DNA from: Peredibacter starrii
GTDB taxonomy: Bacteria > Bdellovibrionota > Bacteriovoracia > Bacteriovoracales > Bacteriovoracaceae
DNA: 64,000 bases
Reading direction: 5' to 3'
Assembly (NCBI RefSeq): GCF_034259205.1
Contig: NZ_CP139487.1
Location: 992,001 to 1,056,000 of the forward strand
Below the pieces are notes generated by a model. It searched no databases. It was not told the origin of the DNA and saw only the letters and a program-made list of their open reading frames with translations. This document shows, one piece after another, positions 3,675-56,938 of the stretch. The first letter of the stretch is position 1; each line of letters starts with the position of its first letter. Position numbers and translations under genes: made by a program.

Positions 3675-3709
3675 CCTAAAAGACTAGATTGATTCATGGG
3701 GTAATACAA

Positions 3710-3730
3710 GCCCCCTCGCAAAGAGGGGGC
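3710..3730 (-). terminator. Rho-independent type hairpin after the phospholipase D-like gene
   Basis: GCCCCCTC, loop gcaaa, GAGGGGGC: an 8-bp GC-rich stem 12 bases past the stop codon of the minus-strand gene at 3743. The following minus-strand bases (TTGTATTAC) are only partly T-rich. Confidence 0.7.
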
Positions 3731-3742
3731 AAGATTATGAAA

Positions 3743-5158
3743 TTAGAGCTGGTGTTTAATAAGTGGAACGGCCTGTTCGATGACTCTAACTGCGCCTTTC
3801 TTAAAATTTCCTACTTCTGCGTCCTGAAGGTCCTTGTTCATCTCTTGTCTGTCTTTACCTACAAGAAGTGAATCGGCCTTGAACTTATTAATGATGACTG
3901 TCAGGTCTTTGGCGATTCCTGAGCCTTTAGTGTCCTTGATCATGATACCGACTTCACGATTGAGTTTTGAAGAACGAGGATCAAGGTTATAAGTACCAAT
4001 CAAGGCAATTTCATCGTCAATTACAGCGGTCTTAGCGTGAGTTGTATCCACTAAATTATACTCATAAAGTTCAATCCCCATGGCAATCATGGCGTCTTTC
4101 GCTGCTTTATAACCGGCCTGAGCAAAGAGGTTATCCGTCGATTTAAGAGAGTTCGTGATAATGGTTACTTTAACTCCACGATCGATTAGGTCCTGGAACA
4201 TCGTGTGAGCACGTTTCGTTGGAATCAGGTAAGGAGAAAGAATAAGGACTTTCTTCTTCGCCTTACTCACGATTGAGTAAAGTTCATCACTCACAAGCAT
4301 GTTCTTAGAACCCATGTTCTTGTCAGTTGAGTTAGACAGAAGTTTTACCCCATCAATTTCTTTAGCGTCTTTGAACCAGTCACGACCTGTGTTCCACTTT
4401 GCGTTTCCTTTACCGCTCTTTAATCTTTCAATGAGTACCTTCATTCTTTCCGAAGAAGATTTCACATCTCGAAGCATAAGAGCATAAAGCTTATCAACGT
4501 TCTCATCACAATCAGGGCCATGGAGAACGTCACAAATATAAACGAGTTTTTCACGCTGAAGTTTATCGTAGTAGGCCTTCTTTACGATATCGTTCTTTTC
4601 CCAAAGTCCCATGTAGTACTTGCGGGTCTCTTGAACCACTTTACCACTGATCATAATATCGAGATCATGGAAGTTTCTCTTCTTATCCAGACCGAAATAT
4701 TTAGCGTCTACGTTTCGTCCACCAATAATGATTTTTGTTCCATCGACGACAAGCATTTTATCGTGAACGCGGTTAAAGATATCGTAAACCGTATGAACAT
4801 CTTCCAGACGGTTAAAGAGCTTGAAAGTGATGTTGGTATTACCGTTTTTATCTTTACAGTCACGTTGAGTGGCCGCGATGGTCGTGTCTTTTACGCTGCT
4901 TGATAGGGCATCAAGAAGAATGCGAACTTGTACACCTCGTTTCGAGGCCTCACAAAGAAGAGCAACCCCGGTGGTTGAAACGTCATCATCTGTTACGGCG
5001 AAGTATTCGACCAGGATTTCAGATTTTGCTTGTTGAATGAGATCTACGCGAGCTTGCAGGGCCTCTTTATCATCATAGAGAAAGCGCGCTTTTTCGGCCT
5101 TCACCTGAGTGGCAAGAGTCATTAACATAGTCAAAGCTAGTGTTTGATGAATCCTCAT
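3743..5158 (-). CDS. Secreted phospholipase D-family protein with two HKD motifs
   Basis: A 471-residue exported member of the phospholipase D/cardiolipin synthase superfamily. It has a signal peptide (residues 1-22, ending QVKA). It has two complete HxKxxxxD motifs: HDKMLVVD (H132, K134, D139) followed by GGRNVD, and HAKTAVID (H374, K376, D381) followed by GTYNLDPRSSKLN. Two intact HKD motifs in one chain form a single active site in this family, so it is likely active on phospholipids or phosphodiesters. The lack of a transmembrane hairpin after the signal argues against an ordinary membrane-bound cardiolipin synthase. Upstream lie a sigma-54 type promoter (5195-5209) and a palindrome shared with the TULIP-like operon at 53448. 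Confidence 0.88.
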   Translation of the reverse strand: MRIHQTLALTMLMTLATQVKAEKARFLYDDKEALQARVDLIQQAKSEILVEYFAVTDDDVSTTGVALLCEASKRGVQVRILLDALSSSVKDTTIAATQRDCKDKNGNTNITFKLFNRLEDVHTVYDIFNRVHDKMLVVDGTKIIIGGRNVDAKYFGLDKKRNFHDLDIMISGKVVQETRKYYMGLWEKNDIVKKAYYDKLQREKLVYICDVLHGPDCDENVDKLYALMLRDVKSSSERMKVLIERLKSGKGNAKWNTGRDWFKDAKEIDGVKLLSNSTDKNMGSKNMLVSDELYSIVSKAKKKVLILSPYLIPTKRAHTMFQDLIDRGVKVTIITNSLKSTDNLFAQAGYKAAKDAMIAMGIELYEYNLVDTTHAKTAVIDDEIALIGTYNLDPRSSKLNREVGIMIKDTKGSGIAKDLTVIINKFKADSLLVGKDRQEMNKDLQDAEVGNFKKGAVRVIEQAVPLIKHQL

Positions 5159-5194: not shown

Positions 5195-5209
5195 GCAATA
5201 AGCTTGCCA
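5195..5209 (-). promoter_or_regulatory. Sigma-54 type -24/-12 promoter of the phospholipase D-like gene
   Basis: The minus strand reads TGGCAAGCTTATTGC, which matches the sigma-54 pattern TGGCA-N6-TTGC with exactly ten bases between the invariant GG and GC. It ends about 37 bases before the ATG of the gene at 5158. The same element, also followed by TTA, occurs upstream of 53448. Confidence 0.72.
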
Positions 5210-5268: not shown

Positions 5269-5283
5269 GTCTAAAACTTAGAC
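5269..5283 (-). promoter_or_regulatory. 15-base palindrome, possible enhancer-binding protein site
   Basis: GTCTAAGTTTTAGAC on the minus strand (imperfect palindrome, arms GTCTAA/TTAGAC), centred about 74 bases upstream of the sigma-54 promoter centre at 5202. The identical 15-mer is found at 53313-53327 in the same orientation relative to its sigma-54 promoter. I found no third full copy in the window. Its role as an upstream activating sequence is inference. Confidence 0.6.
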
Positions 5284-53312: not shown

Positions 53313-53327
53313 GTCTAAGTTTTAGAC
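53313..53327 (+). promoter_or_regulatory. 15-base palindrome identical to that upstream of the phospholipase D-like gene
   Basis: GTCTAAGTTTTAGAC, centred 84 bases upstream of the sigma-54 promoter centre at 53404. A further hairpin (CCCCCT at 53373-53378, AGGGGG at 53385-53390) lies between the two. The next four bases (GGCC) match a half-site at 5796-5807. Confidence 0.6.
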
Positions 53328-53396
53328 GGCCTGTAAAAACATCCTACACCTCTCAAAATCCTTACCAACCAGCCCCCTGTATTTAGGGGGTAAGTT

Positions 53397-53411
53397 TGGC
53401 ATCCCGATTGC
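53397..53411 (+). promoter_or_regulatory. Sigma-54 type -24/-12 promoter of the TULIP-like operon
   Basis: TGGCATCCCGATTGC has ten bases between GG and GC, as sigma-54 requires, and the bases around it (TTGGCA, TTGCTTA) fit the consensus. The predicted start of transcription is about 53423, 25 bases before the ATG. Confidence 0.75.
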
Positions 53412-53447
53412 TTACTAAGACCCAAACCCTTTATTTGAGGAGCTTCC

Positions 53448-55244
53448 ATGCGTACGTGGAAATTTGGCCTTTTTCTTATGCTTACAACAGGACAACTGTT
53501 CGCCCAGGAACAGATGGCCCTGAGGCTTAATGAGAACGGGATGATGAAAATCCTTCGCATGGCGATCCAGTACAATACATCGTCTAAAACGAGTAAGACG
53601 ATCGTTATTCCTCAAAACATTTATAAGTTCACGATCAAAAAAGATCAGCTGACTTCGAACCCGATTATTCCGGTGATTAACGAGATCAGTGATTTGAACC
53701 TAAATCGTGATCTGGATTTTTATCTCAATACTTCAGATATTAAATTGACTGGTAACGTGGATGAGAAAAGCTTAAAAATGAGCATTTCAAATTCTAACGA
53801 TAATGGCTTTGATTTAAAACTTAGCCTGAACTTACCGCAAATTGTGGTCAACGGGGCCCGTTTGAGCCTGTGTGAAGATAAGGCCAAAAACAGCAAGAGC
53901 TGTGGCAAAGGTCTTCAGGCCTCAATGACTAATTTAAAAATTCAAACGAAGTCTCGTCCGGTAAGTCTTTCGGCCACTCTACGTTTAAGAACTGACGGAA
54001 AAGTTGCTCGTGTGAGTGTCCTTTCTGTGACTTCAAACCTTGAAGGAAAAAACGCTCCGGTGATGGACATTAACTTCCAGACGGTGACGGTTCCTAAAAT
54101 TTCAATCGTGATTGATGGTCAGGAAACTGAGCTTGATACTTCTCGCTTGAAAGACGAGATCCTTAAACGTAAAGGCTTCCTGGCAGCGAAACTTATGTCT
54201 TTCGCCGCTGACTTCATTACGTCAGACCTAGCTGAGATGATTAACGTGTACCTTGTGAATAAACAGGTGGCGACTTCATATCAGGTCTATCGTAAAGAAG
54301 GTCTGACAACATTTAACGAATTCATGAGTGACCGTGATTCATATCCTAACCGTGAAAACTATGTTCGTTCTGCGATCCAGCCGGAAGGTAAGGATCCTAT
54401 GACGGTTATCATGGCCGAGATCTCTGAAGTGATTCGCAACGCTCAAGTTGATATCGCACTTAAGAAGATTTCAACTCCACAAAATAAGGACATCGAGCTG
54501 GCCGGATTCCTGAACTTTGTTCTGAATAACCGTGCCATGGCGATCAAGAATACTTTGGGGAACTCTAACCGTGCCCTTCCAAAGCTTGATCTGACTGCAC
54601 ACCGTAACAATGACATCAACCTTGCCATCTCAGAGCCCCTTATTAACGGTGCTTTAGATCTGGTGAATACCACTGGTCTCTATCAGGAAGTATTCAATGC
54701 CATGGCAGATGTGAAAGGCTTCTCAATCAAGAGCATTAAAATGCACTTCCAGGGTGATAAATCCATCGTGGCAGTTGTGAATGCTCAAGTTGATCTTAAA
54801 AAGCTAGAGTCTTCAGGTCTTAGCTCTTGGTTCAAAAACAAACTGGCGGCGTATCTTGAAAGAAATAACAACAATGCTGTGATCTACTTCCCAATTGAAG
54901 TTCAGGTTGTACCAACTGTAACGAAACTTCCATCGGGTGGAGCGGGCCTTGATCTCAAAGTGCTGTCACCGTTTAATTATGTCGAGCTTCCAAACAAGTT
55001 CAACTACCCATCGAACGTGGGCAATATGACCGACATCGTGAAAGATGGTGTCATGGCCCAGCTTAAGGACAATCTTGAGCCATATGTGAACAAAACATAT
55101 AGCGTGGACGTAACAAAATTCCTGAACCAGTCGGGAGTTGTATTCCTTCCGAAAGGCATCTCGATTAATCAGGGCGCTTACTTCCTGCTTAATCTTGATC
55201 TGGTTGATATTAAATTTAACAGCACGAACCCAAACCTACGTTAA
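53448..55244 (+). CDS. Large secreted protein, putative TULIP/BPI-fold lipid-binding protein 1
   Basis: A 598-residue exported protein (signal peptide ending GQLFA). Two halves can be seen. Residues 22-230 read like the N-terminal TULIP domain of BPI/LBP: MALRLNENGMMKILRMAI as the opening helix, then an amphipathic beta pattern (DLDFYLNTSDIKLTGNV, LKMSISNSNDNGFDLKLSLN). A cysteine pair lies at 142 and 152. From about 380 a second domain starts with INLAISEPLINGALDL, like the hDVxxxISxxxxN start of the BPI C-terminal domain. The fold assignment is my reading of the pattern, not a search result. It is first in a two-gene operon with a sigma-54 promoter; GAGGAG precedes the ATG. Confidence 0.72.
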   Translation: MRTWKFGLFLMLTTGQLFAQEQMALRLNENGMMKILRMAIQYNTSSKTSKTIVIPQNIYKFTIKKDQLTSNPIIPVINEISDLNLNRDLDFYLNTSDIKLTGNVDEKSLKMSISNSNDNGFDLKLSLNLPQIVVNGARLSLCEDKAKNSKSCGKGLQASMTNLKIQTKSRPVSLSATLRLRTDGKVARVSVLSVTSNLEGKNAPVMDINFQTVTVPKISIVIDGQETELDTSRLKDEILKRKGFLAAKLMSFAADFITSDLAEMINVYLVNKQVATSYQVYRKEGLTTFNEFMSDRDSYPNRENYVRSAIQPEGKDPMTVIMAEISEVIRNAQVDIALKKISTPQNKDIELAGFLNFVLNNRAMAIKNTLGNSNRALPKLDLTAHRNNDINLAISEPLINGALDLVNTTGLYQEVFNAMADVKGFSIKSIKMHFQGDKSIVAVVNAQVDLKKLESSGLSSWFKNKLAAYLERNNNNAVIYFPIEVQVVPTVTKLPSGGAGLDLKVLSPFNYVELPNKFNYPSNVGNMTDIVKDGVMAQLKDNLEPYVNKTYSVDVTKFLNQSGVVFLPKGISINQGAYFLLNLDLVDIKFNSTNPNLR

Positions 55245-55255
55245 GGGATTAGATA

Positions 55256-56938
55256 ATGAAAAAGATCACAAGCTTTCTACTCATTGGTCTTCTAACTTAC
55301 GGACAGGTGCATGCCCAATCCCAGGGCTTCAAGTCACCGGACATCATCGTAGACACACGTCTGGACTATGACTGGACAAGCTTTCTGATTTCAAAATTCA
55401 GAGTACTGCTTAAAAACTATAACGTTGCTGATCCTTTCAGTAACCGATTTGAAGGCGAGATGGTAGTTAATGAGGACGTAGTAGGGAACTATCTACCTGC
55501 GGACTCTAAAGTTCTCATCGATGATTTCGGAAACGCAGTCGGACTAAATGTTCTTAAAGCAAAAACCAAAGTGACTTTGCATGGCCTTGCCTATGATGTG
55601 AAAGGTTTTAAGACCAATATGAAGGCAGCTGAGCAGGCCAGAGACGGTCTGGTAGTAGGAACCAATTTCTCGGCCTCAGAAGTTACTGTGACGGCAGATA
55701 AAATTTCTCTTTCATTAGTGATTCCTGGGAAAAACAATTCTCCCGTATTTAACGTTGATATCATTCGCCCTGAAATTCAGGCCAATGAGGAAGAACTTGT
55801 AAACTTCTTCACTAAAGTTAAGATTCAGGATCAGAAAGACCATTTTAAACTTCAAATCATCGATGCGGACTTTGATAAAATGGCATCGGGAATGTTGAAG
55901 CATCCTGAGAACATTGAACTTAACTACGAGCGCATCAATATTCCCTCTGTAAGTCTTAGAGTTGGTTCTAAAGTTGTACAATTCTCTCAAACAAAGATTC
56001 AGAATCTTTTAAGAGAGAATCACGAGGCGATTAAAGGAATTCTTCTGGCCCAATTGGCGGGAGTTTTAAATTCAAACACAACGGACGCGGCCTTCAAGGT
56101 TCTTGAGAGCTACAAGATCAAAAAAGAATTCTGGTTAAATTCATCAATCCTTAATAGTCAGTTCATGATCTCAAACTTCAGTAGCTACAGTCGTGGCAAT
56201 AACATTGCCGTTAGCCTACCGGCCGATTTCTGTACCGCTCAAAAGTTCACTCAGCTTAAGGCCGAGTGTGTGAACAACAAAGTCACTCAAACTGCACTTT
56301 CTCGATTGAACAGTCAGCTTCACAAAGAGTCGCTGAATAACATGAATGATATGATGGCGAGTGGAGACGCAAACCTGGTAGTAAGTATCTCTGAAGATTA
56401 TTTGAATAAACTCTTAGTAACTACTTACGATGCTGGTCTTTGGAAGTCTGCTCTGGATGAGGCAGCGGTTGAACTTGGGCCAAGCAAGATGGTTCTTCGT
56501 ATGGACAAGCGTGGAGAGACCGGTACTCTGATGCTGGACGTGATCTACAGGCCAAGCAAGATGGAGAAAATGCTCACTGGTTCAACTCAGATTCGTTTCC
56601 CGCTAGTGGTGGATGTATCGATTCGAATTGAAAATAAAAACGATGTTCCAACTGTAGTAGTGCGTATGAATGATGTGGACTCGAACGACGATACAATCAT
56701 CAATGGTCGTCCGAAAGAGAACATGACAAGTACCGTGAAAAACGTTCCGCGCTTCCAGGGCAAAGTGGCCAAGGCGATTCGCGAGAAGATTTCAGTGCTT
56801 CGTAATAAAGACATCGTTGAACTCAAATATCCTGAGTTCAAAGGACTAGGTCTGGATAAGGTAGAGTTCCTGTCAGATGGTAATGGACGCATGAACGCCA
56901 TTATGGATCTGGATGATCTGATTTCTAGCAAGAACTAG
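55256..56938 (+). CDS. Large secreted protein, putative TULIP/BPI-fold lipid-binding protein 2
   Basis: A 560-residue exported protein (signal peptide ending GQVHAQ), 11 bases after the first. Overall layout matches its neighbour: an N-terminal domain (25-240), a helical bridge (245-290) and a C-terminal domain with SEDYLNKLLVTTYDAGLW at 379-396 and STQIRFPLVVDVSIRIENKN further on, both very much like the second domain of BPI-type proteins. Identity with gene 1 is low, so the pair is old or they form a heterodimer. A role in binding lipids or lipopolysaccharide is inference. The 3' end overlaps the convergent methyltransferase gene by four bases. Confidence 0.72.
   Translation: MKKITSFLLIGLLTYGQVHAQSQGFKSPDIIVDTRLDYDWTSFLISKFRVLLKNYNVADPFSNRFEGEMVVNEDVVGNYLPADSKVLIDDFGNAVGLNVLKAKTKVTLHGLAYDVKGFKTNMKAAEQARDGLVVGTNFSASEVTVTADKISLSLVIPGKNNSPVFNVDIIRPEIQANEEELVNFFTKVKIQDQKDHFKLQIIDADFDKMASGMLKHPENIELNYERINIPSVSLRVGSKVVQFSQTKIQNLLRENHEAIKGILLAQLAGVLNSNTTDAAFKVLESYKIKKEFWLNSSILNSQFMISNFSSYSRGNNIAVSLPADFCTAQKFTQLKAECVNNKVTQTALSRLNSQLHKESLNNMNDMMASGDANLVVSISEDYLNKLLVTTYDAGLWKSALDEAAVELGPSKMVLRMDKRGETGTLMLDVIYRPSKMEKMLTGSTQIRFPLVVDVSIRIENKNDVPTVVVRMNDVDSNDDTIINGRPKENMTSTVKNVPRFQGKVAKAIREKISVLRNKDIVELKYPEFKGLGLDKVEFLSDGNGRMNAIMDLDDLISSKN

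Follow-up and report, generated by a model that had tools for sequence, protein, structure and literature searches.

We propose that, in the Bacteriovoracia, the palindrome GTCTAA-N3-TTAGAC acts as the upstream enhancer for a sigma-54 regulon that spans the class and serves mostly exported proteins, a reading to which we give a probability of roughly 0.85 on the strength of sequence comparisons. In the mechanism that we infer, a dimeric enhancer-binding protein (EBP) would bind the palindrome 39-93 bp 5' of a TGGC-N8-TGC promoter and on the helix face that also carries the RNA polymerase-sigma-54, would contact the latter through looping and would spend ATP to open the promoter, and the output of the regulon would consist mostly of exported proteins; the signal for such activation, and any timing in the life cycle, would be equally conjectural. 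It appears to be a single control circuit for secreted proteins that has not been described before, and in the open-licence papers searched we found no described regulon of this kind in Bdellovibrio or Bacteriovorax and little on sigma-54 control in the phylum.

Paired palindromes and promoters in the window, the genome and the class

The window, i.e. the whole 64-kb stretch of DNA analysed (positions 992001-1056000 of a genome that forms one contig of 4.15 Mb), contains the 15-mer GTCTAAGTTTTAGAC in two places only, at 53313-53327 on the plus strand and at 5269-5283 reading on the minus strand, and as a putative enhancer palindrome the element was assigned to neither strand. The first copy lies 69 bp (68-74 bin of the gaps described below) from a predicted sigma-54 -24/-12 promoter on the plus strand, TGGCATCCCGATTGC (53397-53411; PWM score 22.8, a level reached by ~0.0005 of background windows), and the second lies 59 bp (57-65 bin) from a predicted minus-strand promoter, TGGCAAGCTTATTGC (5195-5209; PWM score 16.4, ~0.001 of background windows). 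Both promoters are of the form GG-N10-GC and are directly followed by TTA, and the centre-to-centre distances from palindrome to promoter are 84 and 74, respectively. The two 15-mers, the two promoters with their TTA and a spacing of 74-84 had all been claimed in an earlier note on this DNA, and we could confirm each of them.

Downstream of the first pair, a plus-strand ORF (53448-55244) encodes an exported protein of 598 aa with a predicted tandem-TULIP (BPI/LBP-like) architecture and is followed, after 11 bases, by an ORF for a second exported protein of 560 aa (55256-56938). Neither protein had a Pfam match, the second is not clearly similar to the first in sequence, and the TULIP family had no match in the PDB by sequence search. 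Membership of the first protein in the TULIP superfamily, with a BPI/LBP-like fold, is supported by a low-confidence model, for which the top fold matches are LBP, BPI, Der p 7 and JHBP (Foldseek E of 5e-8 to 5e-6 against LBP/BPI; Z of 13.9 over 188 residues with an rmsd of 3.9 against Der p 7). Downstream of the second pair, on the minus strand, lies a gene for an exported phospholipase D-like (PLD) protein of 471 aa (3743-5158; PLDc_2, 1.8e-40; PLDc active-site motif, 6.9e-11). This gene is probably monocistronic because its stop codon is followed by a terminator-like hairpin, GCCCCCTCTTTGCGAGGGGGC (approximately 3707-3730, minus strand, read by eye), adjoined by a T-rich tail. Thus, of the two operons in the earlier description, the TULIP pair looks like one and the PLD gene probably is not.

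Genome-wide, the exact 15-mer occurs in 3 copies and the general palindrome in 14 exact places, or in 42 with at most one mismatch; with T/A flanks it is found 12 times versus 0 for a reversed control, and 65 times versus 2 across 30 genomes of the class. A single rpoN gene is present (Sigma54_DBD, 5.5e-63), which removes one ground on which the earlier reading might have failed. The promoter pattern TGGCN7TTGCW alone is not enriched over the genome (68 versus 61 in the control). At permitted distances from the 42 palindromes, 7 sigma-54-like sites were counted versus 0.043 expected from their genome-wide density, and the pairing is therefore far beyond chance.

The pair is conserved well outside this genome. 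A search of 59 genomes of the family for GTCTAAN3TTAGAC-N(40-70)-TGGCN8TGC returned dozens of matches, spread over 25 genomes, and none with the reversed control, while at gaps of 9-39 there were 2 matches, both at exactly 39, and 1 control match, so that no pair was found at gaps of 9-38. Among 129 genomes of the class, pairs with gaps of 39-69 were present in 56 and pairs with gaps of 70-100 in 26 (68 in union), and the reversed control had no match at gaps of 39-100. The promoter pattern was set by the search itself and its logo is thus not independent evidence. A stricter form, with TTGC, was sought in one genome for each of 84,980 species and returned 104 matching stretches, most of them from Bacteriovoracaceae, Bacteriovorax, Halobacteriovorax and other records labelled Bdellovibrionota/Oligoflexia, the remainder being a Bacteroidales cluster and a few others.

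Helical spacing and exported products

Across the class, 137 gaps between palindrome and TGG fall only in 39-43, 48-54, 57-65, 68-74, 79-84 and 91-93, leaving 44-47, 55-56, 66-67, 75-78, 85-90 and 94-100 empty. The best period is ~10.15 bp, reached by 0/5000 uniform and 0/5000 jittered sets, in a collection that includes related species whose orthologous sites are not independent. There is a hard lower limit to the spacing, and from the binned gaps (39-93) the palindrome centres come to lie between about -73 and -127 relative to the predicted start, on one helix face. A dyad-symmetric site some 70-150 bp 5' of the start, as for an EBP enhancer, is thus what we find by predicted starts, and the six gap bins amount to face-of-helix dependence as seen by comparative sequence. 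Such dependence is established for NtrC-type activators, and the ladder is the signature that would be expected of a DNA-looping, same-face EBP acting on sigma-54 polymerase. It also provides an unusually clean class-wide set of natural data on face-of-helix enhancer spacing.

Where genes are homologous, the pair is retained and the gaps are offset from one another by roughly whole helical turns. The gaps are 59/39/39 for PLD homologues, including one with 29% identity and a gap of 39 (L103), 69/60/60/58/41/41/41 for TULIP homologues, which carry the same palindrome and promoter in other genera, 40/58-60/69-70 for a membrane-anchored family and 40/59/62/71/84 for a lipoprotein family.

By a crude, heuristic signal-peptide test, 80 of the 93 distinct downstream proteins (61/72 families) are exported, as compared with 170/466 other ORFs in the same loci (36%; p = 3e-19). 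The recognisable products include a subtilase (L043) and an S41 peptidase (L093), a permuted papain-like amidase (L095), SLT transglycosylases (L146, L187) and an L,D-transpeptidase-like protein (L129), as well as PLD (in the window and L103), a metallophosphoesterase (L127) and a peptidyl-arginine deiminase (L182), alongside many lipoproteins of no assigned function and many products that matched no Pfam family. A class-III aminotransferase (L026) is an exception, and the pair is retained in its relatives L149 and L190. No flagellar gene is found among the annotated targets, which are only part of all targets.

The whole-genome search for palindrome and promoter proposed in the earlier note yielded more genes for exported proteins, and the idea of a dedicated sigma-54 regulon marked by the palindrome is strongly supported by rpoN, the spacing ladder, a class-wide pair without control matches and the exported cargo. 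Its description as a regulon for secreted lipid-active proteins holds for secretion and is too narrow as to lipids, given the proteases, transglycosylases, deiminase and lipoproteins. On a practical matter, the cis-code predicts which exported proteins of no assigned function switch together, giving a candidate list (PLD, TULIP/BPI-like proteins, proteases, transglycosylases), and it also yields a directly testable regulator.

Candidate activators and related sigma-54 systems

Six EBPs of the genome (L047-L052) have GAFTGA, and three AAA+ EBP relatives (L053-L055) appear to be without it; the latter therefore probably do not act on sigma-54 and were rejected as the activator, no GAFTGA having been seen in L053, L054 or the part of L055 that was read. 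L055 sits in an operon that we name flagellar by inspection. L050, confined to close relatives and absent from most pattern-positive genomes, was likewise rejected, and L051 and L052 have drifting helix-turn-helix domains (HTHs). In L047, L048 and L049 the HTH is conserved in 7/7 pattern-positive genomes inventoried.

Our best candidate, tentatively and at slightly less than even confidence, for the activator that would read the palindrome is L047 (genome positions 3931443-3932969), an orphan sigma-54 activator being what the earlier note had suggested looking for. This orphan response-regulator EBP has a full receiver domain, and its gene lies near metK and an ABC operon of Mla type (names given by inspection). 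Its alignment to FleQ extends through the HTH, where the recognition helix is NRTTLIEKM as compared with RRTTLVEKM in FleQ. Its presence tracks the strict palindrome (21/22 versus 4/8, p = 0.011) and, weakly, the promoter pair (p = 0.09).

If the enhancer mechanism is right, the palindrome might still be read by another EBP, i.e. L048, L049 or one outside those considered, and we regard this as having close to an even chance. The HTHs of L048 and L049 are near-invariant in the inventoried genomes, and one genus (g7; G006, G052) carries the pair with no L047 detected there, which favours another EBP. However, palindrome-free genomes (G028, G019, G083) have L048 and L049 too, and the helices of these two, PKKTLLRKI and SRAGLIMKV, are less like that of FleQ or the helix TRQTLYSKL of the Bacteroidales EBPs described below.

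Two further ideas concerning the EBPs were rejected. Loss of the palindrome with a Met to Ile/Leu change in the L047 helix was suggested by G048 and G083, yet G021, G035 and G039 have Ile/Leu and palindromes. For autoregulation of an EBP gene by the palindrome, we found two one-mismatch matches in EBP loci, that of L198 lying before a lipoprotein gene, and no exact site. A near-consensus sigma-54 site, TGGCACGGTCCTTGCT (G000:C1:669151-669166, minus strand), was seen between the EBP gene L052, which it directly follows, and the small gene that comes next.

QseF/GlrR sites at glmY have the form TGTC-N10-GACA. This system shares with ours a response-regulator EBP, sigma-54, envelope-related targets and TGTC...GACA ends, and differs in that our element has N9 spacing and many exported-protein targets, whereas the targets there are small RNAs. 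The string TGTCN10GACA occurs in PMC8745638.

FleQ and FlrA resemble L047 in being GAFTGA EBPs with a Fis-type HTH and an RTTL-x-EKM helix (in L047 the last motif residue is M, I or L), and their sites, like the palindrome, begin with GTC and end with GAC (PMC6120874, PMC4641369). The proposed FleQ site is GTCaNTAAAtTGAC, in a paper that itself doubts a general consensus (PMC6120874), while FlrA-type sites read GTCA-N6-TGAC (PMC4641369). In contrast, L047 has a full receiver domain, the palindrome is GTC-N9-GAC, one base longer than GTC-N8-GAC, and no flagellar gene is among those targets that were annotated. The EBP regulons of Desulfovibrio vulgaris likewise combine an EBP motif with a sigma-54 promoter and have partly cell-exterior targets, but in that species an EBP usually has a few operons under its control, which often lie close to the gene that encodes it (PMC4641369), whereas here tens of scattered genes have no EBP gene nearby. 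Francke et al. 2011 also tied sigma-54 to exterior and exported functions (PMC3162934), as a trend in genome context, whereas here a single cis element with a single spacing rule delimits one regulon; no mention of Bdellovibrio was met in a word search through that paper.

Loci in Bacteroidales (L096, L098, L111, L114, L123, L130, L134, L161, L179, L191) carry GTCTAAT-N-ATTAGAC-like palindromes 53-57 bp 5' of TGGCACG-type sigma-54 promoters, which precede genes that look TolC- or MacB-type by inspection. In L096, L111, L114 and L130 an EBP gene is close by, and in several of the Bacteroidales loci the EBP helix is TRQTLYSKL or similar. The outer GTCTAA...TTAGAC, the sigma-54 promoter 53-57 bp 3' and the nearby EBP gene are shared features, while the narrow gap range, the TolC/efflux-type targets (by inspection) and the EBP beside its target set these loci apart, and they are probably an independent use of the palindrome.

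Palindromes without a sigma-54 site

Seven of the 14 exact palindromes in the genome have no convincing sigma-54 site by the PWM, and the element may therefore have another use as well. Among them is the third copy of the 15-mer (L003), with TGGCACGCTCTTGCA, a GG-N9-GC sequence; the other seven include one with a weak site (L004, TTGG at -12). The earlier note had held that copies without a sigma-54 promoter would speak against it, and this is the case for about half of the exact palindromes, the other half having sites.

Such copies could reflect a dual-use operator, at which the same protein or a GAFTGA-less relative (e.g. L053) would also act at sigma-70 promoters from a site centred at about -68, an explanation that we consider possible but on balance doubtful. 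FleQ and TyrR act at both kinds of promoter. Genes after the sigma-54-less palindromes also encode exported proteins (21/28 for the one-mismatch sites of this genome and 28/39 in relatives, versus 36%), although on the sides of this genome's exact palindromes that are without sigma-54 the share is just 9/16. Furthermore, -10-like hexamers peak 48-51 bp after the sigma-54-less palindromes of this genome (L013, L016, L018, L024, L041 and others), with 22 versus 7.7 per 4-bp bin and a significance of ~5e-4 after correction, the peak having been found post hoc. This was not reproduced in 33 palindromes of relatives (11 versus 9.7 per bin), and we thus rejected a fixed sigma-70 -10 element 3' of these palindromes as a feature beyond this genome. 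The palindrome as divergent -35 boxes was rejected as well, there being no consistent -10 at 15-19 bp. The palindrome may have a second, sigma-70 mode.

The Bacteriovorax-type bacteria belong to a group known for bacterial predators. We consider it unlikely, though worth stating, that a single palindrome with a single regulator makes up an export code for the whole class, read at sigma-54 promoters through the helical ladder and at sigma-70 promoters at fixed spacing, which would switch a large part of the exported set as a unit, in predatory members possibly a prey-degrading one.

It is very improbable that the palindrome serves some unrelated regulator as its operator, or is a non-regulatory repeat, with sigma-54 sites nearby by coincidence. 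Its sequence formally fits the T-N11-A box of LysR-type proteins, and half of the exact copies are without a sigma-54 site. However, coincidence could not produce a spacing with a hard minimum, six bins in phase with empty valleys between them and, at these gaps, a clean control, and it is established that a LysR protein cannot activate sigma-54 by itself. Returning to the sigma-54 enhancer as the preferred reading, two repeated sequences near palindromes may be recorded. The 18-mer TTTTTAATCATTGCTTAA lies 3' of the palindrome at both L001 (minus strand) and L031 (plus strand), and neither place has a TGG element at the corresponding position, and TGGCATCAATATTGAAT, a sigma-54-like site with GA in place of GC at -12, is found near palindromes of two different genera, at L020 (minus strand) and L381 (plus strand).
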